A DNA stretch of 64,000 nt, taken from contig NZ_CP042467.1 of NCBI RefSeq assembly GCF_007993755.1, positions 186,001 to 250,000 of the forward strand, given 5' to 3'. Positions 41,958 through 61,700 of the stretch are shown one piece after another. The DNA comes from Microvenator marinus. GTDB taxonomy: Bacteria; Myxococcota_A; Bradymonadia; Bradymonadales; Bradymonadaceae. The position numbers and the translations under genes are program-made. Below the pieces are notes generated by a model. It was not told the origin of the DNA and made no database searches. It saw only the letters and a list, made by a program, of their open reading frames with translations. The number at the start of each line of letters is the position of its first letter. The first letter of the stretch is position 1.

Positions 41958-43976
41958 ATGGCCGATGAAACCCTCGAATGCCCTGAATGCGGCGAAATAA
42001 GCCACGATAAAGAGTGGTGTGACCATTGTGGAGCCCATTTGAAACCGGCAGAAAACCTCGAACCTGATTGGCTGTCCCCGGGTGAAACGCTCGAATGCGA
42101 GACTGATTCTGGCAAGCGAGTGGTTACGGTTAACGATGTGGTAGAAGATTTTGCCACACGGAAAGTCTTCACCGGCCGTCTTGAAGACGGGCAGCTGGTC
42201 TTTATCGAGCAGGCCGCGAGCGACCCGGATGATTTGGGAGATTTGCCAGAGGAGGTCAAGCACCTCTTCAGACGACCGTTCTACCGTGGAGTGCGTGGTG
42301 AATTGGTCACCGAGGTCTATCGGGATGTTGGCGGCCTGACCATTGAAGATCTCGTAGAGATGAGCAACCGACAGCTCTCGTATCCGCAGATTAAAGACCT
42401 TTTCGAGGTCGTGGCCGAGACGCTAATCTCTTGTCACGACGCGGGTTATATGGTGCTGGCCGTCGCTCCGTGGACGGTACGTGTGGATGGGATGATGGTG
42501 CCCCAACTCTCCGGCAAGGATGATGTTGAGACACCGTTTCCGGAATTCGCCGACGCAGCGCCCGACGAAGAGCTTGAAGACCTCTCAGATTCCGACGAGG
42601 AAGATTTTGGGGCGTTGGTGGACGTCATCGAAGATGTGGACAGCAACGACGATTTGAGTGCGTGGGAGATCCTCGATGAGCCGTCGAATGTGGTCGATGC
42701 ACTGAGTGATACGGGCATCGTCACGATGAAGAATTTGGAGACGCAGACGCCTCCAGAAATGACGTGTTTGTTCGAGGGGCTCGACCGCGCCTACACAATC
42801 GGCCGAAATCCAGATGAAGTGCCCGTGATCATGGGATTTTCAGCGCCGGAGCTACTTGGAAGAGTTCGCGCGGATATTACTGAAGCTACCGACGTCTTTG
42901 GCCTCGGAATGTTGCTCTATTACATGGTGGCTGGGCGCCTTCCGCCCGCATCAGTCTACACGCGATATGCACCGGCTATCCCCGCTCGAAATTTCCGGCC
43001 AGGTTTTCCTCCTGGGCTGCAGGCTGTGATTTCGCGCGCCACGCGGCCAAATCCAGACGACCGTTTTCCAAACGTTGCGGCTTTCAGAGATGCGTTTCTC
43101 TCGGCCTGCGCAACCATGGAGCGGCGGGTTCCCAATCCAAGTGAGCCTCCAAGGTTTCGCATCGCTGTGGACACCCACGTTGGGATCAACAAGGGGCGCA
43201 GAAACCCCACGAATCAAGACGCGGTATTCGGGAAGTCGTCGGATGATGGGCGGTTTTCACTGATCGTCATCGCCGACGGAGTTTCCACGGCTTCGTACGG
43301 TTCAGGTGACCTTGCGAGCCATTTCCTCAAGGCGCGTGCCAAAGAGACCTGGGAAGAGATTCTTCCGATGTACCTGATGGACGAAGAGATCGATGAGATT
43401 CAGATCATCAACACGCTTCTTCAGCGGGCCAATCAAGATATTGTGGACCACGTCAACGAGCACCACACGCCGTTCTCTGGAAACCCACATGAAGTCATGG
43501 GGTCCACCGCTCTGGTAGCAGTGCTTCATAAGGGCGTGGTTACCCTTGCAGCCCTTGGTGATTCGAGAGCTTATCTCTTCACGAACCTCGGCTTGGAGCA
43601 GGTCACGACAGACCACAATCTCTCCACACTAAGCATTCTTGACGGTGTTCCTGCGGATAGCGCGCTGGCCATGCCTCATTGCGACGCGTTGGCTCGCTGC
43701 CTTGGCACGTTCTCCATCAATGGTGGCGTGCTGACATCTGTGAATCCGCAAGCCGACCTCTTTAAGTTTTCGTTGACCCGGGGCGATTTGCTTTTGCTCA
43801 CGACGGACGGCTTGGTGGATTTTGGTGGGCCGAATCAAATTGCCGCTGAAGAAAATATCTACACCGTTTTGGCGTCTGAGCCGGACCCTGCGCTGGCCTG
43901 TTTGGAGTTGATTCTACTCGCCAACCGCGGAGGCGGTGGTGACAATATTGGGCTTGGAATCGCTCAGTTCTTCTAG
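41958..43976 (+). CDS. Zinc ribbon - pseudokinase - PP2C protein phosphatase fusion
   Basis: A 672-residue cytoplasmic protein with three parts. Residues 8-24 are a CPECG...CDHCG zinc ribbon. Residues about 55-385 follow a Ser/Thr-kinase fold without its chemistry: the lobe after FEVVAETLISCHDAGY has VAPWTVRV instead of an HRDxKxxN loop, no DFG, yet the APE-like SAPELLG (295-301) and the C-lobe TDVFGLGMLLYYMVAG are retained. An acidic insert (about 195-245) sits between. Residues about 400-670 are a complete PP2C phosphatase: NQD (419-421), IADG (438-441), STALVAVL, LGDSRAYL (533-540), TTDG (615-618) and GGDN (660-663). The phosphatase should be active with Mn/Mg; the kinase part is presumably a regulatory or scaffold domain. 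It may oppose the Hanks kinases at 1-5076. Transcribed separately after a terminator. Confidence 0.87.
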   Translation: MADETLECPECGEISHDKEWCDHCGAHLKPAENLEPDWLSPGETLECETDSGKRVVTVNDVVEDFATRKVFTGRLEDGQLVFIEQAASDPDDLGDLPEEVKHLFRRPFYRGVRGELVTEVYRDVGGLTIEDLVEMSNRQLSYPQIKDLFEVVAETLISCHDAGYMVLAVAPWTVRVDGMMVPQLSGKDDVETPFPEFADAAPDEELEDLSDSDEEDFGALVDVIEDVDSNDDLSAWEILDEPSNVVDALSDTGIVTMKNLETQTPPEMTCLFEGLDRAYTIGRNPDEVPVIMGFSAPELLGRVRADITEATDVFGLGMLLYYMVAGRLPPASVYTRYAPAIPARNFRPGFPPGLQAVISRATRPNPDDRFPNVAAFRDAFLSACATMERRVPNPSEPPRFRIAVDTHVGINKGRRNPTNQDAVFGKSSDDGRFSLIVIADGVSTASYGSGDLASHFLKARAKETWEEILPMYLMDEEIDEIQIINTLLQRANQDIVDHVNEHHTPFSGNPHEVMGSTALVAVLHKGVVTLAALGDSRAYLFTNLGLEQVTTDHNLSTLSILDGVPADSALAMPHCDALARCLGTFSINGGVLTSVNPQADLFKFSLTRGDLLLLTTDGLVDFGGPNQIAAEENIYTVLASEPDPALACLELILLANRGGGGDNIGLGIAQFF

Positions 43977-43983
43977 AAGATTC

Positions 43984-45066
43984 TTAGCGATTTTCCCGCT
44001 GGGCATGCGCCCATTCAATAGTTTCTTGGGGAACCCAATCCGACGGGTGGCCAACGGGTTCGGCCGGGCCAGAAGTCGCGAGCGACGGATGGTAGGATTG
44101 AAGCCAGCGCACGGTATCCCTTAGGGTGAGCATCGGCTCTCTGGGCTCCCAGCCGAGTTCTCGTTGGGCCTTCGACGAGTCGATATACCAAAAGAGAGAT
44201 GCCATCTCGACGCTGACCGGATCGAGGTCGGAGCGAACACCAAACATTTTGAGCGCTGTACTAAGCAATCTTGTGCCCTGTAGCGTAGCTTCTTTGGGCA
44301 GAGAAACTTTTGGCGCCTTGACCCCGCTTAGGGCTTCGAGTTGGTCGAAGAAGTCACCTAGCGTCCAGTTTGCGGCACCCAAGAGGTACGTGCCTTTCGC
44401 CTCAGGGGTCTCCATGGCGAGGATGAAGGCAGTGGCAGCATCGCGGACATCAACAAACGAGAGGCCGCCTGAGAGCTTCACTGGGACTTTCTTTTGTAAG
44501 AATAGGCTCACGTCGCCCGTTGAGCTCTCTCGCGTGTCTCCGGGGCCTAGAAGGAGCGTGGGGCGCATTTGAACGATGGGCATGCCATGATCTTCGATAA
44601 ATCTGTTGCACACCTTCTCCTGAGCGATTTTGGAGAGGTAGTAGGGCCATTTTCGAGCGTATTGCTCCACGTAAGGCGAGCTATCGGTTGCAATAAACTC
44701 AGGATCATCACTTACGCCGACACAACCGCTGGTCGAGGCGACAACAATACGTTCGACCTTTTGGTCGCGAAGAGCGTCCAAGAGGCGGCGTGTTCCGTCG
44801 ACATGGACGGCGTACATTTTATGAGCCTTGGAGGCGTCGCGTTCCACGAGTCCGGCACAATGATAGACCTTGCTCACTCCATCAACCACACGGCGAACAT
44901 CTTCCGGACTATCGAGTGAGCCCTCGACGATCTCGACTCCGAGGTCCGAAAGTTCGAGGTCAAAATGGCGCGTCAACACCCGGACATTGGACTCACCGCG
45001 CTCGACCAATTGCTGGACCAAAGCGCGCCCAAGAAATCCGGTTCCGCCGGTAACGAGTGTTGTCAT
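43984..45066 (-). CDS. NAD(P)-dependent epimerase/dehydratase (extended SDR)
   Basis: A 360-residue extended SDR. The N-terminal TGGTGFLGRALVQQL is the Rossmann motif; YHCAGLVERDA, an active-site Ser in VASTSGCVG, and YYLSKIAQEKV (Tyr-x3-Lys) follow. The style (STSGCVG, SFVDVRDAATAF) resembles dihydroflavonol-4-reductase/3-beta-hydroxysteroid dehydrogenase-like and HpnA-like enzymes, so a steroid-like, hopanoid or lipid-linked alcohol or ketone is plausible. It is the last gene of the lipid operon, 50 nt after the 1608-residue fusion. Its end lies 7 nt from the convergent PP2C-fusion gene. Confidence 0.85.
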   Translation of the reverse strand: MTTLVTGGTGFLGRALVQQLVERGESNVRVLTRHFDLELSDLGVEIVEGSLDSPEDVRRVVDGVSKVYHCAGLVERDASKAHKMYAVHVDGTRRLLDALRDQKVERIVVASTSGCVGVSDDPEFIATDSSPYVEQYARKWPYYLSKIAQEKVCNRFIEDHGMPIVQMRPTLLLGPGDTRESSTGDVSLFLQKKVPVKLSGGLSFVDVRDAATAFILAMETPEAKGTYLLGAANWTLGDFFDQLEALSGVKAPKVSLPKEATLQGTRLLSTALKMFGVRSDLDPVSVEMASLFWYIDSSKAQRELGWEPREPMLTLRDTVRWLQSYHPSLATSGPAEPVGHPSDWVPQETIEWAHAQRENR

Positions 45067-45116: not shown

Positions 45117-48100
45117 TCATCCCTGAAGCTTGAACACGGCGCCAAATCTGGCCAAGAGGTCCGGCGAGTTTGTCTTAATGGTCCCGTTCATGAACTCGTC
45201 AAAGGACGGCACGTACTTTTCTTGAACGATCTTTCGGAAGATTTCCGGGGATGTCTTTACCACACAATCAGCCGCACCGTTCTTGGGTTTACCCTGGTAG
45301 ATGCTGCAGTCGTTTGCGTTGACGACGATGGACCATTTTTGGTCGTCCGATGCTCCGAGGGTGAAATAGTAGGTTACGGGTTGATCGAGCTGATCGCGTT
45401 CGAACTTCTGGTTGAGTTCGGAGAAGAGCGGCTGAAGAATATCTTCCCCGCCTGTCTTCTTCACGCCGAGGTCACGCAAATCAACCATGGATTGGTAGGC
45501 GCTTTCGGCGATGAAATCCCAGAGATCGTTGCCGGTCGCTCCGTTTGACGCTTGGACCAATTTGGACGCCTCAAGTGGCTTGCCGATTCTCACCTTGAGC
45601 TTGCGAGAAGTAAGCGAAGGAAGAGACTTCCCTTTCGGAAGGGCGCGATGGGTGCCCTCGATCCATACTGGAAGGATGTCCACTTTCTGTGTGGCCACAA
45701 GAAAGCCTAGTCCGCGCCGAAACTTCCTCAACTTCCCGTCGCTAGCCCGTGTCCCTTCTGGGAACATGAGTAGGGTTTCACCTTTATCGAGCGCGTCGAG
45801 CGCGCCTTTGAGCGCGACATCCGGCGTACCGGCGCGCTCAACAGGGATGAGGTTCGTGAAGTTCTGGAAATAAGTCTTTCGGATCTTATTGGAGAAGAAA
45901 TAGTCGGCTGCTGCGAGCGCGCGGATTTCCTTTCCAAAATCACCGAGCGCAAACTTCACAAGGCCCATATCCAGGTGGCTCGAGTGATTTGCGATGACGA
46001 TGACGTTCGGGGAGTGCCACGGGATGTTGGCTTTCCCAGAGACTTGAACGTCGAAGTAGCCTTTGTACGAGCGCATCTGCGCCTCATGAAGGGCCTTCTT
46101 TCCGAGCTCCGATACAGGCGCTGGAACAGGAAGGCTCTCCACGCGCTCAGCCGTTGATTTCGGCTGCACAACGAGTGCTGTTTGGGTGCTCTGAGATGAG
46201 TTCTCTAGTGCTTCTCGCAGCGCCCCGAGTGTCTCGTGGCGAGAGAGTGCTTCAGCGGTAATGTAGATACTGCGCGCCTCGAGGATGCTCACAAGCTCGA
46301 CAAACATCAGACTATCGAATCCGAGGTCGTCCACCAAATGTGTGTTGTGGTGGATGGCGGAGGCCTCTTTCCCGGCCAAAGTCGCGACAGCTTTTTCAAG
46401 CCAGACCCAAGCGTGGTCGGATTCGCCTTTGTCCACACTGGTCTCTTCAGCGACGAGAAGTCGGTCGAGAATCTCGAGAATCTCGCGGCGTTTGACCTTG
46501 CGTGTGGACGTTCTTGGGAAGACTTCGTCCCAGAATCGTAGGACTTGGATACGCGTGTGTGGTGTGCCTCTGAGGCCTTCAACTCGGATCCATTCACGGA
46601 TGGATTTTCTGAGCTCGGCGATCTCCTCGGCACTCGCGCCTTCGGGCACGTCTGGGCGCACCAAGCAGGCGACTCGTTCTGAGCCGCGACCGTCCGGCAG
46701 GCCTACGATAGCAAGTTCCAAAACGCCTGGGGCTTTGCCATAGATGTCTTCGAGTTCGTCCGGGTAAACGTTCTTTCCGCCAGACGTCACAATGACTTCT
46801 TTTCGTCTTCCGACGATGGTGAGTCTTCCTTTGTCGTCAAGTGTGCCGAGATCGCCGGTATGCAGCCAGCCATCTTGCAAGGTCGATTTGGTGTCATCCT
46901 CGCGGTCGAGGTAGCCGAGCATGACGTTCGGTCCCCGCGCGACGACTTCACCCACGCCGTTTTCGTCGGGGTTGTGAATCTTGATCTCTACATGCGGGAT
47001 ACTCTTTCCGACACTCCCTGGCTTGAGCCCGTCTTGGGGTCGGCTGACAGTCAAAACAGGAGCTGCTTCGGTCAATCCGTAGCCTTCGTAGATGTCGAAG
47101 CCGAGCGCATTGAAAGCCTCAAGGACGTCCTCGGGGAGCGAGGCTCCGCCGGAGATCAGATATTTGATATGGTTTCCGAACGCTTTGTGTACGGATGAGA
47201 AGAGCAGGGGGCCAACGTTGACGCCACGCTTTCGCAGGTTTTGGTTCAACGCGATCATGTTGTCGAAAACAACTTTTGCGCTTGGGCCGGCCGCGTCCAC
47301 TCGTTGTTTGATGCTGCGATGGAGGAGTTGCCAGAGGGCCGGCACCCCGATCAGTGCCGTTACCCGAGTGGCGTTCATCGCACTCTTGAGCTCTTCGCCC
47401 GAGAGTTCGTCAAGGTAGGTGACGCTTGCACCCTTTGAGAGGGGCATCAGGAATCCTGCCGAAAACTCAAAGGTGTGATGGAGCGGAAGCACACTGAGGA
47501 ACCCGTCGCGGTCCGTGATTCTAAACGTGCCGTCGAGGCTGCTCAGGAGCGACGTAAAGTTCTGATGCGAGAGCATCACGCCCTTTGGGTCACCGGTGGT
47601 GCCCGAGGTGAAAATCAAACTCGCGAGGTTTGGGTCGTCCGTGGTTCTTGGTGCATCGTCTGGAATTTTGACTTCGGGTCCCGGAAGCTGAAGCGTGAGC
47701 AGCTGATTGTGGGTCAGAATGCGTGTCGGCAGACCAAGTGACGAAATCTCACTCTCGATTTCGGCCGCCATTCGATCGAACACTTCCTGACTTAAGACAA
47801 TGGCATGCGCTCGGCATGACTTCGCGAGATTGATGACCTGATTCGGGGTGGATTCTGCGTCAACCGGGACAGCAATCGCGCCAGCCTTCAGAATACCAAA
47901 GTAAACCATGCCCCACTGAGGCCGATTCTCGCCAAGGAGGAGCACGGAGCTTCCCGTGGAGATGCCCATGGAGTTTAGAAACGACGCGACTCTCTCGGCG
48001 CGTTCCTTGAGTTCTCCATAAGTGTATCGCTCGACAATCTCACCGCCACGATGATGCTGAAGTGCAATATTTTGGGCGTAATTTGTTGTCGAAGAGTCGA

Positions 48101-49943
48101 AGAGCTCGACGAGGTCTTTGTAGGTGTAGGTCTCTCGTGGATCGCCTTTGAGCTTTTCTTCGAGATTTGGGAAGACCCATTTCTCTAGGCCCGGCGTGTG
48201 CACGTTTAGCCAGTAATGACGCCAGTCGAGGCTTTCTACAGGGCATCCGTAGAGATGGCGTTCGCTCGGATGAAGCATCTCGGAGAGCTTGAGTGCATTT
48301 TGAGCCACGAAAACATATTTGTTGTCGTGAATGAAAGGCATGAAGAGTTCGAAAATCTTCTCGCCAGTCGCGGTGAGCTTCTCGACCTTCTTCGCCTCGT
48401 TTCGCACGCTGCTGAGCGCCTTTCCAAAAGCTCCCATCTGCCGAGTCGGGAGTTTGTCGATCGCCGACCCAAAAGATTTTGCGGCCTTGTGCATGCCCGG
48501 AATGGATTGGCGTTTGAAGGTGCCTTCGTCCACCGTGATGGCGTCCATGCTGTTGATGACGAGCTTCTTCCAAGCTGGAACACCTACCTTCTTAGAGTGA
48601 ATCTGGCGCGAGGCAAGTGCGCAGAGTTCCACGATTCGTGGGAGCGTCATCGGATTTCGGTCGCTCGTACCGCAGTGGTAGACGGCCTCGTGTCGGCTCT
48701 CGATGAGCGCTGCAGTCATTCCGATCATCAACCCGGTCACCCAGTCCACCGGAATCACGTCGAGTTTGACATCTGGCTTGGCGGGGATGAATCGGTGTCC
48801 CTTGTAAATCAGGAACATGATGGGAGCGGTGGTGTTCATGCCCTCGTTCCACCCTGGGAACGGGTAGGACATGGAACTCTCGATGATAGCAGGGCGGAAG
48901 ATGGAGTACTCAACGTCGTCCGCGTGCTCCACGAGGAGCCGTTCCCCAAGCGATTTGGTATAGGTGTAGATATTGACCCAGCCCCAATGCTCGGCGCGCT
49001 TTCGGCCTTCGGTTGAGAGATGGCGTTTGATCCAATCGCGGCGCTCATTCTCGATCTCTTTTTCGACGGACTGTTCGTCGATGAGGCGGTTTTCCTTCTT
49101 CAGCCTGTCCTTTGCGGCTTTGACAAAGGTTGTGTGGCGCTCTTGGTCTTTTGAGAGGACCTTTGCGTGCTCGATCATCGCCAGGCAATCCTTGATTTCT
49201 CGGATCGCGTCGAAGTCCACTCCGAGCTCGTTGTGGCGTGGGTAGACGTCTTCCAAGGGAAGGACTTCCGGTGTCGGCTTTTGAGTGGAACCCGCCACGA
49301 ATGCGGTCGAGACGTGGAGGAGCTTTGCGTGCGAGCCACCGAGCTTGATGAAATCCAGAATGTACTGCGAAGACATCGTGTTGATTCGCAAGGCGCTTTC
49401 GAGATTTGGATTGAAGTTCGTCAGACCGGCTGAGTTGACGAAAACGTCCAGAACACTGGAGATGGCGCGTGCCTCGTCCTCGGCGAGCCCCATGTGCAGT
49501 TGGGTGATGTCGCCGCCGAGCGGTGTGACTTTCTCCCTCAAGAACTCATCAAAACCTGCTCCGTAAATCTCCCGGAGCGGGTCGAAAACGGGCGATGAAA
49601 TTACCTCATCGAGAAAGCGGTCATTTGCCGATTTGGTTTTCGACTCACGAATCAAAACGTAGAGTTGTTCGATATCTGGATGATACCTAAGCAACATCGA
49701 AATATAGACCTTGGCTAGGAATCCCGTGGCGCCTGTCACGAGGATACGCTTTCCGTGAAGTGATTTGCTTACGGAGAGTGAGGATCCCTGATCATCGTAT
49801 GCCGACGAGGGAAGTGCAACGTCTGCAAGGTCATCCGTGGCGCGCACGACCTCGTGCGAAGGCTCGTGTGCATGCCCATTGATCTGACCATTGAGATGGC
49901 CGTTCGACTTGCCGTTTTTCTTACCGTTCTTTTCGTTCGACAT
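45117..49943 (-). CDS. Multidomain acyl reductase - acyl ligase - carrier protein - acyltransferase - SCP2-like fusion (ElbD-like)
   Basis: A 1608-residue enzyme. An Asn/Gly/His/Lys-rich N-terminus (1-35) precedes: (1) a fatty acyl-CoA reductase-like NAD(P) domain, TGATGFLAK (70-78), with Tyr326-x3-Lys330, to about 600; (2) an AMP-forming acyl-CoA/ACP ligase (about 615-1160) with IFTSGTTGDPKG (777-788), YGLTEAAP, and GWLHTGDLG; (3) a carrier domain with phosphopantetheine-site Ser1211 in DLGFDSLMF; (4) a PlsC-type acyltransferase with NHSSHLD (1319-1325) and FPEGTR (1394-1399); (5) a C-terminal SCP2-like domain (about 1500-1608). This is close to the layout I recall for myxobacterial ElbD, which makes ether lipids; here the likely chemistry is activation, reduction and transfer of acyl chains. 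The 28-nt gap on its upstream side and the 50 nt to the epimerase gene place it in one operon. Confidence 0.87.
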   Translation of the reverse strand: MSNEKNGKKNGKSNGHLNGQINGHAHEPSHEVVRATDDLADVALPSSAYDDQGSSLSVSKSLHGKRILVTGATGFLAKVYISMLLRYHPDIEQLYVLIRESKTKSANDRFLDEVISSPVFDPLREIYGAGFDEFLREKVTPLGGDITQLHMGLAEDEARAISSVLDVFVNSAGLTNFNPNLESALRINTMSSQYILDFIKLGGSHAKLLHVSTAFVAGSTQKPTPEVLPLEDVYPRHNELGVDFDAIREIKDCLAMIEHAKVLSKDQERHTTFVKAAKDRLKKENRLIDEQSVEKEIENERRDWIKRHLSTEGRKRAEHWGWVNIYTYTKSLGERLLVEHADDVEYSIFRPAIIESSMSYPFPGWNEGMNTTAPIMFLIYKGHRFIPAKPDVKLDVIPVDWVTGLMIGMTAALIESRHEAVYHCGTSDRNPMTLPRIVELCALASRQIHSKKVGVPAWKKLVINSMDAITVDEGTFKRQSIPGMHKAAKSFGSAIDKLPTRQMGAFGKALSSVRNEAKKVEKLTATGEKIFELFMPFIHDNKYVFVAQNALKLSEMLHPSERHLYGCPVESLDWRHYWLNVHTPGLEKWVFPNLEEKLKGDPRETYTYKDLVELFDSSTTNYAQNIALQHHRGGEIVERYTYGELKERAERVASFLNSMGISTGSSVLLLGENRPQWGMVYFGILKAGAIAVPVDAESTPNQVINLAKSCRAHAIVLSQEVFDRMAAEIESEISSLGLPTRILTHNQLLTLQLPGPEVKIPDDAPRTTDDPNLASLIFTSGTTGDPKGVMLSHQNFTSLLSSLDGTFRITDRDGFLSVLPLHHTFEFSAGFLMPLSKGASVTYLDELSGEELKSAMNATRVTALIGVPALWQLLHRSIKQRVDAAGPSAKVVFDNMIALNQNLRKRGVNVGPLLFSSVHKAFGNHIKYLISGGASLPEDVLEAFNALGFDIYEGYGLTEAAPVLTVSRPQDGLKPGSVGKSIPHVEIKIHNPDENGVGEVVARGPNVMLGYLDREDDTKSTLQDGWLHTGDLGTLDDKGRLTIVGRRKEVIVTSGGKNVYPDELEDIYGKAPGVLELAIVGLPDGRGSERVACLVRPDVPEGASAEEIAELRKSIREWIRVEGLRGTPHTRIQVLRFWDEVFPRTSTRKVKRREILEILDRLLVAEETSVDKGESDHAWVWLEKAVATLAGKEASAIHHNTHLVDDLGFDSLMFVELVSILEARSIYITAEALSRHETLGALREALENSSQSTQTALVVQPKSTAERVESLPVPAPVSELGKKALHEAQMRSYKGYFDVQVSGKANIPWHSPNVIVIANHSSHLDMGLVKFALGDFGKEIRALAAADYFFSNKIRKTYFQNFTNLIPVERAGTPDVALKGALDALDKGETLLMFPEGTRASDGKLRKFRRGLGFLVATQKVDILPVWIEGTHRALPKGKSLPSLTSRKLKVRIGKPLEASKLVQASNGATGNDLWDFIAESAYQSMVDLRDLGVKKTGGEDILQPLFSELNQKFERDQLDQPVTYYFTLGASDDQKWSIVVNANDCSIYQGKPKNGAADCVVKTSPEIFRKIVQEKYVPSFDEFMNGTIKTNSPDLLARFGAVFKLQG

Positions 49944-49971: not shown

Positions 49972-51564
49972 TTAGATCATGTCCGCGATCAAGAATGGAG
50001 GGTGATGCATCATTGTGATTTCCGGCGAAGGTCCGTGGAAATCTTTTGCCATTTCAAGGGCGTCTTCCATGGTGTCAGCGGCGAGCCAACCCATGCGTTC
50101 AGGGACGTAGGAGTTTTCGGCTCCAACCACGATGACGCGCCCGATATGTGCGCGTCCGTTTTCGCCCCAGTACCACATGTAGAAAGGGTGGACGCCGTGA
50201 TAGGCGTTTCCGCGCCGGTACATCTCGATGTAGTTCGGGTTATGGGCGAATTTCTCTTCCCATTTATGAGCCAGGACTTTCGAATCCCGCGTCTCTGAGA
50301 GGCAGAGATTGAAGAACTCGATATAGCTCGGGTGATGGTCTGGATCGAAGTCATCATAGCACGGGTGCGTGATGATGAGCGTTCCGCCCTTCTTGATGAC
50401 CGGCTTACCGCGGTACATATTGAAGAAGTATCCGAGCGCCATCACGTGAACCAAAATAGGGTTCAGGATAGAGTTGACGTTGTACGGACTCTCGAAGGGG
50501 ATTCCGTAGATCATGACGTCGGCTTGGCCTTCCATCTCCACAGCATGCTGTTGCCAACACTTTTCAAGGGTCTTGGCGTGCACAGCTTCGGTTTCACCTG
50601 CGTGTACACCCACCAGCCCGTAATCCGCGGGGATTTTGTGGAAGAGGGCGCGCTTTGCTGGACGAGGGACCCTCTCAAGCGCCTTTTGCATCGCCTTGAA
50701 CTTGAGGTGGTCTGCGGGCGACCAGATATCCTCAGGCCTCGCCAAGAACATCAGGTTGTCGTCGTACATCTTGTTGTTCAAAGTGGTCTCAATGTGGAAG
50801 ACATTGAGGTTCTCCCTGATCACTTTTCCGATGCGTTCGTTTGACGAGTAGAGCGCTGACTTCTCTGGATCCATGTAGGAATCGCTTGCCAGAATCGTCT
50901 TGGGATTGTGGTGGTGTCGAATTCCAGTGTAGCCGGCGAGCCCGGTGGCGATTGACTTATAGCCGCCGTTCATCGGGACGTAGTTGATGTTCACGTAGAT
51001 GAGGAGGTCACTCTCCGCGGCCCTACGCACCATTTGGACTTCTTCGCCATGACGCGTGGTCCCGAGAATCACCATGTTTTCTTTATCCTCGCCGTCCATA
51101 TTGTAGAGGCGGTGAGGATAGTATTTGTTAAAGATCTCGGAGCCGACCATGCGCTTGATTTCCGACGCAGTCATGGGTCGGTGTAGCGCGAGAGCAATGA
51201 CCATCTCGTAGTCTTCGACCCCGTGGTCTTCCAGAATCTGGAGCACGACTTCCAACATTTGCTGACGCAAATCTGGAGTGCGCATCGGAGGCAGAGGTAC
51301 CGAGATATCATCGATGGCGATGGTAACCTTCATACCTGGCTTGAGCTGGGCATAGAGAGGTTTTGCATCGCCTTCGGGATTGTTCAAGGCGTATCGAATG
51401 GCAGCTTTGCGGTTCTCGATGGGCTTCATCGGAGGCTTTGCGTAAACTACACGAGTTCCAGCCGGAAGCTTCACATTGATGAAGTCCTCGCCGTAATGCA
51501 TGTAGCGGGGCACGGAGTCTTCGTCCAAAATGCGCACGCAACTATATGTCTTATCTTCGGCCAT
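49972..51564 (-). CDS. LarA-like (DUF2088) nickel-pincer-type racemase/epimerase homolog
   Basis: A 530-residue protein resembling LarA, the lactate racemase with a nickel pincer cofactor. Matching blocks: VTIAIDDISVPLPP (for the acidic strand), ALALHRPMTASE (LarA G-T-H-R-P site), and NGGYKSIATGLAGYTGIRHHH, where Lys corresponds to the residue that binds the cofactor covalently and the His run to metal ligands. It is about 100 residues longer than LarA (~424), with a long C-terminal part (TLIITHPCYDDFDPDH). The reaction is an epimerisation or racemisation of an alpha- or 2-hydroxy acid or sugar; substrate unknown. In the operon between the HAD phosphatase and the lipid fusion, 28 nt from each. 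Cofactor genes larB/C/E are not in the window. Confidence 0.75.
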   Translation of the reverse strand: MAEDKTYSCVRILDEDSVPRYMHYGEDFINVKLPAGTRVVYAKPPMKPIENRKAAIRYALNNPEGDAKPLYAQLKPGMKVTIAIDDISVPLPPMRTPDLRQQMLEVVLQILEDHGVEDYEMVIALALHRPMTASEIKRMVGSEIFNKYYPHRLYNMDGEDKENMVILGTTRHGEEVQMVRRAAESDLLIYVNINYVPMNGGYKSIATGLAGYTGIRHHHNPKTILASDSYMDPEKSALYSSNERIGKVIRENLNVFHIETTLNNKMYDDNLMFLARPEDIWSPADHLKFKAMQKALERVPRPAKRALFHKIPADYGLVGVHAGETEAVHAKTLEKCWQQHAVEMEGQADVMIYGIPFESPYNVNSILNPILVHVMALGYFFNMYRGKPVIKKGGTLIITHPCYDDFDPDHHPSYIEFFNLCLSETRDSKVLAHKWEEKFAHNPNYIEMYRRGNAYHGVHPFYMWYWGENGRAHIGRVIVVGAENSYVPERMGWLAADTMEDALEMAKDFHGPSPEITMMHHPPFLIADMI

Positions 51565-51592: not shown

Positions 51593-52273
51593 TTATTCCA
51601 ACGTTAACACGGGCCATTGGTAGGCTCGCGCTGTGGTCTTTAGTCGGAAATCCGGATTTACAGCACATGGTTTTCCGACAACGGAAAGCAAGGGGAGGTC
51701 GCTGCCAGAGTCCGCATAAGCGAAAGATTCGTCGAGATTGAGGTTGTGCTTCTCGGCGTATTGGCGAACCCAGAGGGCTTTGTTCGCGCCAGCAAGCATG
51801 GGTTTGAGCAAGTTACCGGTGGCGACGTGGTCCTTGAACTCCAATCGGTTGGCCACAAAATCGTCCACACCTAGATAGCGCGCCAGCGGTTCGGTCACGA
51901 AGTCGAGCGCGCCGGTCACCAGGACTTGCTGATGGCCCTGTGCCTTCGAGTTTTGGATGAGGTCGCGCGCGCCTTTGAAAATATTGGGGCGGATCACATT
52001 TTCGAAGAGTTCTTCACCCAAAACGATGAGTCGGTCTTCGGTCAACCCCGCATAGTTCTTGTAGAATGCGTCATTGAACCATTTGCGGTCGTATTTATCT
52101 GCGACCCAGTAGAGCGGGAGGCTGGCTACCAGAGAGGCAGTTCTCTGAATTCTAGAAGTGATACTCGGGTCGTTGATTGCGTAGTATGCGTATGCGTGGA
52201 CCACGTTGGTCTTGATCAAGGTGCCATCTACGTCATAGAAGGCCGCCGTTCGCCGCGCGGATTGTTGAGTCAT
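51593..52273 (-). CDS. HAD-superfamily IB hydrolase (phosphoserine-phosphatase-like)
   Basis: A 226-residue cytoplasmic phosphatase from ATG 52273, where GGGAG precedes; in the same frame an earlier start (52372) would add a hydrophobic leader with no match. Catalytic motif I is FYDVDGTLIKTN (Asp-x-Asp-Gly-Thr), motif II VLVTGAL, and the closing YADSGSDLPLLSVVG is the acidic metal motif. HAD-IB proteins of this style (with the AYYA-rich helical cap) often neighbour lipid acyltransferase genes and dephosphorylate lipid or phosphorylated intermediates. It is the first gene of the four-gene operon, so phospholipid or glycerophosphate dephosphorylation is the inferred role. Confidence 0.85.
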   Translation of the reverse strand: MTQQSARRTAAFYDVDGTLIKTNVVHAYAYYAINDPSITSRIQRTASLVASLPLYWVADKYDRKWFNDAFYKNYAGLTEDRLIVLGEELFENVIRPNIFKGARDLIQNSKAQGHQQVLVTGALDFVTEPLARYLGVDDFVANRLEFKDHVATGNLLKPMLAGANKALWVRQYAEKHNLNLDESFAYADSGSDLPLLSVVGKPCAVNPDFRLKTTARAYQWPVLTLE

Positions 52274-52343
52274 ACCTGTACTCCCTTTTGGGCCCGCTCC
52301 TTCAAACAACCAAAAAATCGTGAAAGGTGTGAGCAGGCCGAAA

Positions 52344-52372
52344 TCAATAAGGACCGCATAAATACTTGTCAA
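52344..52372 (-). promoter_or_regulatory. Candidate promoter of the HAD-LarA-fusion-epimerase operon
   Basis: On the minus strand a perfect TTGACA (52367-52372) is 17 nt from TATTGA (52344-52349; only 3 of 6 in the -10). A start near 52337 leaves a ~64-nt leader. It is placed between the HAD start (52273) and the palindrome at 52386-52401, which lies about 57 nt upstream of the start point. Confidence 0.45.
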
Positions 52373-55727: not shown

Positions 55728-58700
55728 TTAGAGTTGCGCGAGCGCATCACGAGTAGGTTGATGGTTAGGATCAATTCCAAGCGCTCGGGTAAACATATCC
55801 TTCGCGCGTCGAGCATCACCTTGATGCCACCGCACCATGCCAAGATAGTAGTAAACATCGACTTTATCGTCATCCCTTTCGATGTTCATTTGATGCAAAA
55901 GCAACGTTTGGAAGAGTTTTAGTGCCTGGTCCCAATCTTCTTTCTGGAAGGTGATCTTGCCAAGCGAGAGCAAGTTTGGAATGTACGAAGCATCCACTTT
56001 ATGCGCCTCTTCGTAGGCTTGTAGGGCTTCTTCAACATTGCCTTTTTGTTCGGCAAGTTTACCCCGAAGGTGCATAAACTTCACCACGTCTTTCATCTTT
56101 CGATCGGCCTTGAGCTTCTCAATGACCTCAAGGAGCATGGGTTCCGCCCGATCAAACGCCTCTCCGCTGATATAGGCATCGAGCAGAGGTTCGATCACCT
56201 TCAGGTCCGCTGCGTCGAGCTGGTACGCCTTTTCCAAGGCAGCAATTCGCTTAGACGGATCCTTGAGTTTGTCGCGGGAGATGGCGGCCATTTCAAGGTA
56301 GGTGGCCTTTTTGGCTTCCGCATCAGCTTGGCCCGCCTCGAAGTCTAGAAAGCCGTAGAGCTGGTCCCACGCCCCGAGTTCTTCATAAATTGCCTTCAAT
56401 TCCTTGAGTGCGTCTTGGTGCGAAGGATCGAGCTGAATGACCTCGATAAGGTCCGCACTCGCACTGGCGGGATCGTTCAACGTGTGGCGGTGGAGCAGGG
56501 CGCGCCTTAAGTAGACCGTTAGCCTCTGGGCGTTATCGGTCGCTACGTTGAGCTGTTGCTGCAGAATCGTGAGCAAACTCTGGTGGTCGCCGGCGGACTC
56601 GTAGATATCCCCGAGTGTGCTTAAGGCTTCCTGATGGCCTGGGGCAATCATCAACACAGCGTTCAGGTTTTCAACGGCCTTGATCGGGTCCCCGAGTCGA
56701 TTGGCAAAGATATCAGCCATCGTGACTCGAAGTTGCGCAACGCGTTCCGGATCGTGCGATGAAGACGCGATAACACGGTCGTAGAGGCCGAGCAGGTCGT
56801 CCCATCGCTGCTCGCCAGTGTAGAGGCGGTCAAGGGCAGCAACGACTTCTGGGTGATTAGGGTCGATCTCCTGTGCCGCTTCAAAGTCGGTGATCGCTTG
56901 TGCGACGTCCGAGAACTTCTCGTAGCTAAGAGATGCGGAGCGAACCAGAAGGCTCAATCGCTCATTCGGGTCAGAGGTCAGTGTCAACTTGCGTTGGAAA
57001 ACCTCCTGAAGTTCAACCCATTGTTCGGTCTCCGTGTAGAGCTCATCCAGGGCTTGAAGCACCGTTGCACTTTCGGGTTGGTATTCCAGAGCCTTTCGGT
57101 ACGCGTCGATCGCTCCGAAGTTATCCTTGAGAAGAACTCGTTGGTATTGACCGATTCTGACGAAGAGTTGGAACCTCTCGTTTTCATCGAGCACAAAGTC
57201 GACAAGACGCTCGAGAAGTTCAACAAGCGAGACGTATTCCTCCACAATTTCATAGAGGTCCACAAGAGCGCGCATGATGGTCTGGTCGGACTCGTCGATC
57301 ATTAACGCTTCACGATAGGCCTCGATTGCCCCTTCAAAGTCTTCCACGAAACTGAGGACCTTTCCGAGTTCAATCAAGGTGGTCTTTCGCTCAGTCGGGT
57401 CAAAGAGCGCCTCTGTCTTCTTCCGAAGTACGCGCGCGAGTTCGAGGTGGTTATTCTCGAGACGAGCGAGTTCTTCGAGCCAGTTTAGAGCCTCTTGATT
57501 CTCGAGATCGATCTCAAGTACCCGATGGAAGAGGCGTCTCGCCTCGTCTGGCTCGTTGAGTTTCTGGGCCCAACGTTTTGCAGCCACAAGCGAGAGTTCA
57601 AGCTCTCGGACAGGGTCGCTCAACTCAGCGATGATATCTTCGTAGAGTGCCACAAGCTCTTCATCGAGCCCGTTTTCATCGGCGAGCTTTTCGAGCCGTT
57701 CTTGAACTTCAGAGCTATTGGGTTCCTCTCTAAGAGATCGTCCCAGATAGGCATAGGCCACAGCAGGTCTTGCAAACACGCGTTCTTCGAGATCTGCAAT
57801 ACGCTCGAGGGTCAGCGCACGCTCAACATTTGTGTCCAAATGTTCCACACGAAGGTTCAGGATTCGAACGAGGCCTTCGGAGTCATCTGCAGATTCGTAG
57901 AGAGGAAGTAGGATCTCGCAAACTTCCTTTTGGACCTCTTCAACCTCGACAATTCGCTCCAAAGCAGCAATCGCGCCAGCATGTTCTGGCTCTTCAGAGA
58001 CCACGGTTCGGTAGTGTTCCAGCGAAGTAATCGGATCCTCAAAGACGACTTCATGGAGGTAAGCCAATCGGTAGCGAACGTCATTGACGCGTGCGGGATT
58101 CGCAATGGTCAGCTCGCGTTCAAGGACGTCTCGCAGGTGGTTCCACTGATGCGTCATCTGATAGAGCCGGTCGAGGTAGTCAAGCGCTCCACCGTCATAC
58201 TCGTCAAACTCCAACGCCTGCTCAAAATGAGAGATAGCGTCCTTAGCCTCGTCGAGTTCGAAGTAGAGGATGCCTAGCCTTCGATGAAGTGCCGCTGCAC
58301 TCGCAGGGTCGGCGTCCATGGCATCCAGGCAGTCTTCGTAAACCGCAACGAGTTCGTCCTTGTTTCCAAGTTCCTCTGACAATCTCTCAATGTTTGAGCG
58401 CACATCTGGGGATGTCGGAGCGTCCCTGAGCGCACGCCCATAAGTCATAAACGCAAGGTTCGCGCTGCCCGAGTCTTCGTGCAGCCTTGCGAGCTTCAGA
58501 TAGACACGCTCACGCTCCTCTGGGTCGGCCGAGTGCTCAAGTGCCACTTCATAGAGCTTGTCGAGCTCCTTTGCGTCTTCTGAGGCCTCATAGGCCTTCT
58601 CAAGCGTCTCAAACGCATCCGGATAGGTTTCCGGACGCTCAAGGAGGGTTGTCATGGCATCCCGAGCCATCACATTCTCAGGGTCCTCCTGAAGCACGGC

Positions 58701-61700
58701 ATTGAAGCTTCCGAGTGCGTCGTAGGGGGCGTTCAGGGCTTCAAGCAAGACGTATCCCGCTTTCAACTCGAACACGGCGCGCTCCTGCCCACTGGTGCGA
58801 TCTCGCTGCTTTTCCAGTACGTCCAGAAGTTCTGGCCAGCGTTCCGTAAGCTCATAGAGTCGGGTCAGAGCGTTGAGTGCTTTGGGGTCCGACGGCTCCA
58901 TCACAAGGATTTGGCCCCATGACTCGATAGCTCTATCCCTATCTTGCAGGACTTCGTCCTGTAGGTTCGCGAGCTTTCTCAACACTGAGAGGCGCGGGGT
59001 GCCGTCGTCCACAAGATTGACCTTCAACGAAAGAATTCGTTCAAGTTCGTCGTTGAGGTTTTCCTGTTCGTAAAGCGATTCAAGAGTTTGCACGTACTCA
59101 AGTCGAGTGGGGTTGAGCTCGTGGAGCTTTTCCCAAGTTTGAATGCCGGAGTTAACATCACCGAGCACATCAACTTGAATGGACGCGATTCTTTTGAAGA
59201 TGCGCTCTTGGTCACCTGGCTCGAAGACGTTTTCAGCCCGTTTCGAAAGGATTTCAACCAGGGGTTGCCACATCTCAAGTTCGCCCAAGAGTTTCTCAAG
59301 CTGCAACGCGGCTTCTTCGTGATTGGGCTCGAGCCGCAACACCTCTTGCCAAACCGCCACAGCGCTCTCGTGATCTTTGAGATTGTTCGCGAGGATATTC
59401 GCGGACGAGACCATCAAAGCCAGCTGCGCGTCGATATCGTCCGTCAGCTCGAGTCCGGAAAGGAAGAGAGATGGAAGTCTCTCCCACGCGTTCAACTCAT
59501 CAGCAAGCTCTTGAACTCGATCAAAGAGGCCTTGGTCCCGAGGGTCAATCTGATAGGCGCGTGCCAAGAACGCCATGGCTTGCGAGCGTTCTTCGGCCTT
59601 TCGTGAACCGTCAAGGAGTTGTGCGAGTTGTCGGAAGATCTCGACTTTGCCTGGGATATCTTGAGTCAGCTCCACCTTTTGTTCCAAAGAACGAAGAACC
59701 TTCTCTCGGTCTCGACTTCGGTCATAGGAGTTCAAGAGGGTGTCCAAGATTTGCAAGCGTTGTTCTTCCCACTCGCCGTCTCGAATATCGAGGTCCCTGC
59801 TCAGGCCTTCCAAGGCACGACGCGCTTCGTCGTGCGATGGGTCGGTTTCCAGAATTTCTCGGTAGAGCACGAGTGATTCGTCTAGTTGGTCGAGCTCCGT
59901 CTCAAGGAGCTGGGCCAAACGGTAACGGTACTCGAGTTCTTCGTGTGTGTTCTGAGCTTGAGCTGCCTGATTCCGGTAGAGGTCGGCCAGGTCAAACCAC
60001 CTTGCATTGTGATGGAGCAGACGCTCGAGCGCACGCTGAGCGCGTTTGTCGCCCGGGTCTAGACCAACGATCTCAGTATGAACATCGATTGAGGCCTCAG
60101 GGTCTTCAATCACGTCCTCATAAAGGCTCGCCAGGTGCTCTAGAACTTCCTTTCGGTCGATCGGGTCAACGATCAAATCCGCTTTTCTACGGTACAACTC
60201 GCCAAGATCTACCCATGACTCGAGTCTCGCGTAAATCCGTTCCAGCGCATCGAGAGCTTGTGCATTCTCGGGGTCGAGGAGTAGGGCGCCCTCCAGTGAT
60301 TCACGAGCACTTTCAAGATTCTCAAGCCGACTCTCTTGGATGGTAGCGCACTCAAGGTTCAGCGCGACACGGGTCTGATCATCGACCTCAAAATTGTCCC
60401 GAAGCGTGGTCTCGTAGAGTTCCACCAGCTTCTCCCAACCCTGCGTTCGAAGGGCGGTTCGCTCAAGCGCCTCTCTAGCGTCGGGTTGGTTAGGTGAAAG
60501 CACAAAAACCTGTGCGTAGAGCGATTCCGCTCGCTCTAGGTTCTGACCCACCAATTCGGCCTCTCGCGCGGCATCCAAAAGTAGAGCCACTTTGCGTTCC
60601 GGATCCGTGGTGTCAGCAGCCTGAGCTTCGAGCGCATCGGCGAGTCTATCGCTTGCCTGAATGGCCCGGTAGTAGGGCTCTAGGAGTTGAGCAATCTCGG
60701 CGCGAAGTCCGACCTCTTCAGAAGTCTTGAAAATCACTTCAAGCGCATGAATCGTAGACTCTCTTGAAGGGTCCACGCTCAGGTTTTCCCTGAGGTAATC
60801 CACTGCAACCGACTCATTCAGCAAGAATTCTCGATTGAGAGTAGCGAGCTCCTCTCTCAAGCTAAGTGCTGTATCCGGGCCTGCCACTGCTAGTTGCTGG
60901 ATGAGATGACTGTTCAAGCTATCCCAGTCCTCTTGAGCACCGTAGAGGCGTCGAAGCTCCTTGTCGGCGTCATTATCCTCAGGATTGAACTCAAGGACGC
61001 GGCGCCATGTCTGGGTCGCGCGAGCCTCGTCCTGAAGGAATTCTTCTTCGATGGTTGCGATTCGGCGCAGATGCTCGAGCGCGGTGTGATCTCCCGTGTT
61101 GATCTCGGCGTTGAACCGCGACTCCAACACGTCCACCAAATCGTGCCAGCGCTCCTCCGAGGTCAGTTGATGCGTCAAAAGCTCAAATGCGTCCGTGTGG
61201 AACTCATCGGCAAGCAATACCTCGCGGAGATGACGCTCAGCGTCATCGTGGCTTTCGAGTTGCTCCATATAAAGGAGCGCAAGCCTCAAATGCAGGTCTA
61301 TCGCCGTCTCTTCAGCATGGGCCTCTAAAAGGGCGTCTTTGTAGGTCTGCGCCAACGCATCAAACGCATTGGTTTGGGCCGCGAGTGAAACGAGTTCATC
61401 ACGAACTTCGTGGTTTTCAACGTCGAGCAACCAGGACTTCGCCAAGGTATCCTGAGCCGATTCGAGGTCGTTCAGGTGTTCTTTCTGAATTCGAGCGATT
61501 TCTCGAGCGCGAGCGATAAGGTCGGGACCCGTCTCTCGACTGAGGAGTCGTTCATGAATCGAGACCAGCTTCTCCCACTCTTGACGATTTGAGTATGCGG
61601 CGATCAGGTCAGGGGCCACATCCTCAAGTAGGGCCTCGTCTTCCGCCATCTCGGCCAATGCCTGGAGGGCGTCGTCAGAGCCTGGATTCCGGACGAAGAT

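Follow-up and report, generated by a model that had tools for sequence, protein, structure and literature searches.

The closest described system is the elb operon of Myxococcus xanthus (VEPE/AEPE/TG-1 cluster, MIBiG BGC0000871). According to the accessible part of a review (PMC9131029), this operon consists of elbA (NAD epimerase), elbB (HAD phosphohydrolase), elbC (unknown function), elbD, and elbE (NAD epimerase/dehydratase). The same part of the review reports that elbD mutants lose most of their ether lipid, that complementation restores it, and that an aldehyde is missing from the mutants. It also gives ligase and carrier activities of M. xanthus ElbD as shown, and FAR and acyltransferase activities as undetected in vitro. 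The elb cluster is described as widespread across Myxococcota in the accessible text of a further paper (PMC12766979), a text in which the word "Bradymonad" does not occur. The M. xanthus descriptions, as far as they are accessible, do not mention an SCP2 domain at the C-terminus of ElbD.

We analyzed a stretch of 64,000 nucleotides of the Microvenator marinus genome (contig NZ_CP042467.1, positions 186,001 to 250,000), which is referred to here as the window. Four genes lie on one strand in the window, in the order HAD, LarA-like, ElbD-like, and SDR from upstream to downstream, with gaps of 28, 28, and 50 bases. The genes, and the domains of the third one, are as follows:

51593..52276, minus strand: elbB-like gene, HAD-IB phosphatase (Pfam HAD 1.2e-35; TIGR01490)
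49972..51564, minus strand: elbC-like gene, predicted LarA family protein of the single-histidine kind (NCBIfam LarAH_14_15_16)
45117..49943, minus strand: elbD-like gene, multidomain enzyme of 1608 aa (single ORF, ATG start)
48735..49739, minus strand: FAR-type acyl reductase domain of the ElbD-like protein, residues 69-403 (Pfam NAD_binding_4 2.4e-49)
48171-48407, minus strand: C-terminal part of the FAR, Pfam "Sterile", residues 513-591 (7.4e-7)
46497..48080, minus strand: acyl-AMP ligase domain, residues 622-1149 (Pfam AMP-binding and AMP-binding_C)
46209..46403, minus strand: acyl carrier domain, residues 1181-1245, with Ser1211 (Pfam PP-binding 4.3e-8)
45660..46049, minus strand: PlsC/AGPAT-type acyltransferase domain, residues 1299-1428 (Pfam Acyltransferase 2.9e-20)
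45120..45461, minus strand: C-terminal domain with predicted SCP2 fold, residues 1495-1608 (family profile and predicted fold)
43984..45066, minus strand: elbE-like gene, SDR/NAD epimerase family, HpnA/3beta-HSD-like (Pfam Epimerase 5.1e-36)

The HAD protein scored 135 bits against TIGR01490 (cut-off 98.3), and its DxDGT motif is at least 97% conserved in 63 sequences. Its ORF was listed from a TTG at 52372; translation more likely begins at an ATG near 52276. The elbE-like protein scored 207 bits against TIGR03466, which is under the cut-off of that model; its Y142, Y143, and K146 are at least 97% conserved in 47 sequences. The next genes upstream of the operon are on the plus strand and encode a 175-aa protein to which Pfam gave no match, and a radical SAM protein that resembles HemW. 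On the other side, the operon is adjoined by a gene at positions 41958-43976 of the window, whose protein has weak zinc ribbon and kinase-like matches together with a PP2C phosphatase domain; this gene is syntenic in several genomes of the family. A 2734-aa protein with tetratricopeptide repeats nearly throughout is encoded at positions 55728-63932.

The domain order FAR-ACS-ACP-AGPAT and the gene order elbB-elbC-elbD-elbE are the same here as in the accessible account of the M. xanthus operon, ElbC being matched by position. The likeness to M. xanthus ElbD (ABF88003.1) is one of published domain and gene order. A preliminary description of this DNA had noted a resemblance to myxobacterial ElbD, and the shared domain order agrees with this. 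It had also stated that the neighboring genes differ from the elb operon and, on these grounds, that the product may be new. Because HAD-LarA-ElbD-SDR is the published elbB-C-D-E order, the claim of differing neighbors was wrong, and the argument for a new product from unlike neighbors falls with it. The two operons differ in three respects: no elbA-like epimerase gene lies directly upstream in M. marinus, the ElbD-like protein carries an SCP2 tail, and ElbC is recognized here as LarA-like. We believe that the M. marinus locus is probably the elbB-elbC-elbD-elbE operon of the ether-lipid pathway.

The FAR reductase, ligase, carrier, PlsC acyltransferase, and SCP2-fold tail were all found in the one ORF of 1608 aa, as had been proposed from the sequence. 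The top solved relative of residues 50-600 was the fatty acyl-CoA reductase 7eoz (2.5e-49), whereas the MxaA reductase gave a far weaker match (5.7e-7). The reductase is therefore of the FAR kind, not the carboxylic-acid-reductase kind. The "Sterile" match of the window protein is under the Pfam cut-off (29.7 vs 35.4 bits). In the ligase, Pfam AMP-binding covers residues 622-1012 (2.6e-79) and AMP-binding_C covers residues 1063-1149 (2.1e-5). The ElbD alignment contained 57 sequences, namely the window protein and 56 homologues, and four ElbD ORFs with an open C-terminus were excluded. Among the aligned sequences with letters at the position, the Tyr and the Lys of the FAR motif YxxxK (Y326xxxK330 in the window protein) were each present in 54/54, as was every position of the ligase motif TSGTTG. 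The ligase lysine (K1149 in the window protein) and the carrier serine (Ser1211) were each present in 56/56 aligned sequences with letters there. The acyltransferase motif HX4D kept its His in 56/56 and its Asp in 56/56, and FPEGTR was also present. Where the FAR nucleotide motif has its third glycine (Gly in 47/52), the window protein has Ala77. The window protein keeps the catalytic motifs of all four enzyme and carrier domains intact, and the 56 homologues hardly vary in them; the reductase and acyltransferase active sites, which were checked for loss, keep their motifs. Since the ElbD-like protein is conserved over its full length in relatives, it is no product of chance.

The C-terminal part had been called SCP2-like, and this was supported by matches within the tail family, by a profile, and by the predicted fold. 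The window tail alone reached 16.6-17.6 bits against Pfam SCP2 (PF02036), below the gathering score of 21.3 bits. SCP2 matches at E<=0.01 were found in 33/48 aligned tails, the best at 3.1e-7. This alignment comprised the window tail and 47/51 further tails; L061, L062, and the near copies L039 and L058 were omitted. A profile built from the tails matched the SCP2 domain of human MFE-2 (1ikt) at 4.8e-4. The AlphaFold2 model of the tail (pLDDT 85.5, pTM 0.75) aligned with 1ikt at Z 11.6 (rmsd 2.8 over 106 residues) and with the SCP2-like domain of the alkylsulfatase 2yhe at Z 13.2 (rmsd 3.0 over 109), and Foldseek matched it to SCP2 structures at E 3e-5. The predicted fold is common to the SCP2 domain of MFE-2 and the C-terminal domains of alkylsulfatases (2yhe, 2cfu). 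Identity to these domains is 10-25%, and the ElbD tail differs from them in being fused to a multidomain ElbD-type enzyme. Because 52/57 aligned ElbD-type sequences have the tail, it is no local addition, and the idea of an addition peculiar to the M. marinus genome was ruled out. The homologues without it are L107, L108, L109, L141, and the partial homologue L069. Family f18 is mixed, as L137 has the tail and L141 does not.

The four-gene elb operon is an ordinary, well-conserved trait of Myxococcota. Of the 57 genomes sampled from the class, 37 were counted as ElbD-bearing because their matches, whole or split, reached at least about 740 bits. The LarA-like gene was found in 35/37 ElbD-bearing and 0/20 ElbD-lacking genomes (p 1.9e-13, uncorrected for kinship), and this split holds within family f3 too. 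The two exceptions that have ElbD and no LarA-like gene are draft genomes in which ElbD lies on short contigs. At the 26 LarAH-bearing loci of the class, ElbD was found in 26, an adjoining HAD gene in 24, and all four genes in 21. At the 40 LarAH loci of other classes of the phylum, the corresponding numbers were 37 for HAD, 22 for ElbD close by, and 15 for all four; several LarAH loci without the full set are cut by contig ends. No ElbD lies close to LarAH in 18 of these 40, so the HAD-LarA pair is able to stand apart from ElbD. At least two of the 18 (L122 and L129) have ElbD slightly further off. In two genomes, G029 and G051, the HAD-LarA pair is separate from ElbD-SDR. A like split of the elb genes in some myxobacteria is reported in the accessible part of PMC9131029.

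The elbC-like protein scored 857.5 bits against the NCBIfam model LarAH_14_15_16 (NF052592), whose cut-off is 740. By sequence, the closest solved proteins were 9q2u/9q3k (9.7e-51), followed by 9q3j (3.6e-42). The AlphaFold2 model (pLDDT 88.7) aligned with 9q3k at Z 38.9 (rmsd 2.3 over 452 residues) and with 9q3j at Z 36.0 (rmsd 2.5 over 429 residues). In the alignment to 9q2u, the NPN lysine (K203), the His ligand (H218/H219), and the first catalytic His (H128) are present. The second catalytic His of LarA (H174) is needed for two-way racemization. None was found at the aligned place in the elbC-like protein, where there is a gap with N192 and N194 nearby. LarA_Sp and LarA_Bw (PDB 9q3k, 9q3j) are single-histidine NPN proteins and have the fold, the catalytic His, the NPN lysine, and the nickel-histidine motif in common with the elbC-like protein, at 21-26% identity. 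LarA_Sp and LarA_Bw have an Asn in place of the second His; this Asn falls in the alignment gap of the elbC-like protein, whose genomic context is lipid metabolism rather than sugar metabolism. In the accessible part of PMC12611868, LarAH groups 14 and 15 are described as lacking the second histidine, and one solved single-histidine relative carries the cofactor on its lysine. Myxococcota belong to the taxa in which LarAH is most prevalent (80-100%), according to the accessible part of another study (PMC11770544). From sequence and model, we infer that ElbC, a protein of "unknown function" in print, is of the LarA-fold, single-histidine, nickel-pincer type. M. xanthus ElbC itself would also be LarA-like, judging from its operon position and the reported LarAH prevalence in Myxococcota. 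A literature search, with subscription papers (including the founding 2014 ElbD paper) outside its scope, found among the papers listed no publication joining ElbC to LarA and none naming an SCP2 domain in ElbD.

Elsewhere in the M. marinus genome, a PF10520 CarF/PEDS1-type protein of 250 aa is encoded (L156:2301-3053, at about 1491300-1492053, minus strand). The CarF/PEDS1 (TMEM189) plasmanylethanolamine desaturase has PF10520 and nine essential His, an Asp, and a Phe in common with this protein. All eleven residues are present in it, namely eight essential His, the PEDS1-specific His, Asp100, and Phe118 (mouse numbering). The full set was found in 25/27 sequences, that is, in M. marinus and 24/26 further loci (ORFs picked by phmmer, 26/26 further loci kept); the two exceptions, L178 and L188, depart from it at the PEDS1-specific His. 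Against the NCBIfam CarF model NF045946, the M. marinus protein scored 218.8 bits, under the 500-bit cut-off. A PDB search with it returned only designed toroid repeats, which are not meaningful. PF10520 was found in 19/57 class genomes, all of which bear ElbD (19/19), and in 17/21 genomes of the M. marinus family. According to a review, CarF among myxobacteria is confined to the suborder Cystobacterineae, to which the host here does not belong.

Two AGPS-like proteins are also encoded in M. marinus. Residues 84-536 of L074 align to residues 179-652 of the solved AGPS at 170-190 bits, and the HHH motif is kept. The second protein, L075, is encoded beside glcE/glcF-like genes and may be a glycolate-oxidase-type subunit. 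At L158:3317-9310 of the same genome, OleD-like reductase, AGPS/GlcD-like, GlcE-like, GlcF-like, and diacylglycerol-kinase-like genes lie in a row. The stricter AGPS type was found in 17/37 ElbD-bearing and 3/20 other genomes. AGPS-like genes are patchy and do not follow ElbD closely. Because the M. marinus genome encodes a CarF/PEDS1-type desaturase and at least one AGPS-like protein, plasmalogens are predicted.

In the proposed pathway, the ligase domain of ElbD would adenylate a fatty acid and load it onto its own carrier domain, and the FAR domain would reduce the activated chain to an aldehyde or alcohol. The PlsC domain may put a second chain on an acceptor of the glycerol-phosphate type. 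Judging from its fold, the SCP2 tail may hold or pass on the greasy alkyl intermediate. ElbB is predicted to take off a phosphate, and ElbE to catalyze a hydroxyl/keto step. ElbC, with its NPN lysine and one catalytic His, may transfer a hydride on a hydroxylated small intermediate. The CarF/PEDS1-type desaturase encoded elsewhere would convert the alkyl ether to the vinyl ether (plasmalogen).

We consider it quite unlikely that the product of the operon is not an ether lipid but a different reduced or acylated one (for instance, a wax-type ester, an ornithine lipid, a sulfur lipid, or a lipid signal), ElbD-like enzymes having spread to several products. Sponge-symbiont ElbD-like clusters fall into two clades with different predicted substrates in the accessible part of PMC9426513, and no role in ether-lipid synthesis is known for the LarA-like partner; both are in line with another product. 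In Pontiella, ElbD homologues are present and no ether lipids were found, according to the accessible part of PMC11868695, and for this reason an ElbD homologue is no proof of ether lipids. Against another product, the domain and gene order is that of the operon tested in M. xanthus, as far as the published account is accessible, every genome with a CarF-type desaturase also bears ElbD (19/19), and the acyltransferase belongs to the PlsC type and not to the wax-ester synthases. Nothing was found in favor of the wax-like product that the preliminary description had considered; a wax ester was rejected, as Pfam found no wax-synthase domain. Within the ether-lipid reading, the operon could supply the fatty alcohol only. 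ElbD would then provide acyl activation and the FAR1 step, an AGPS-like protein would make alkyl-DHAP as in animals, and CarF would finish. M. marinus does encode L074, with its HHH motif, and L075, and we regard this variant as possible, if rather improbable, because 20/37 ElbD-bearing genomes, including the single-contig G007, and 11/19 genomes with both CarF and ElbD gave no match of the stricter AGPS type. Neither AGPS-like type was found in three genomes (drafts), and an AGPS mutant of M. xanthus lost little ether lipid, as the accessible part of PMC9131029 states. An ether lipid from the elb operon is still the reading that we prefer.

Whether ElbC uses the nickel-pincer cofactor was weighed in the same way. 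The alternative, to which we give a rather low probability, is that ElbC has kept the LarA fold and given up the use of this cofactor. The NCBIfam model lumps groups 14, 15, and 16, and LarAH14 of Frankia was inactive on the substrates tried in published work, which would fit a loss of the cofactor. Against such a loss, K203, H128, H218, and H219 of the elbC-like protein are invariant in 67 sequences, 21 of which were used for a separate LarAH alignment, and LarC was found in 78/82 LarAH-bearing genomes, compared with 130/200 other genomes of the phylum. In nine genomes, LarAH is the sole Lar_N protein and LarC is still kept; in two genomes of family f33, larC adjoins the elb cluster (L139:6435-7586 and L140:5273-6457). 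The M. marinus genome encodes LarB, LarC, and LarE. As a proof of NPN use by ElbC, this set is weakened by a second LarA in M. marinus, for which these genes are needed as well, and by the f5 genomes, and LarC alone is a weak proof because f5 keeps it without a proper Lar_N. The second LarA-type protein of M. marinus (L191:2554-3636) has 360 aa, with an N-terminus that is possibly shortened, and is closest to malate-racemase models, under their cut-offs. In f5 genomes (e.g., G028, G037, and G040), LarC is present and the Lar_N match is none or weak; LarC may have another client there.

Overall, the operon is of a known kind, and the new leads are ElbC as a LarA-like protein and the CarF-family desaturases in the M. 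marinus family. If ElbC has the LarA fold, there is a clear route for testing it, by cofactor loading and a substrate search among small hydroxylated glycerol-type compounds. A bolder proposal, which we hold to be unlikely, is that elb-type ether-lipid synthesis needs ElbC as an NPN hydride-transfer enzyme. With its one His, it would take a hydride off one carbon and put it back onto another, giving a hydroxy/keto intermediate from which ElbD and ElbE would assemble the ether with no need for AGPS. If true, this would explain what ElbC is for and how ether lipids arise independently of AGPS, and it would be the first role of the NPN cofactor in lipid synthesis. With the CarF-type desaturase found here, oxygen-dependent plasmalogen synthesis is predicted over a wider range than Cystobacterineae alone.
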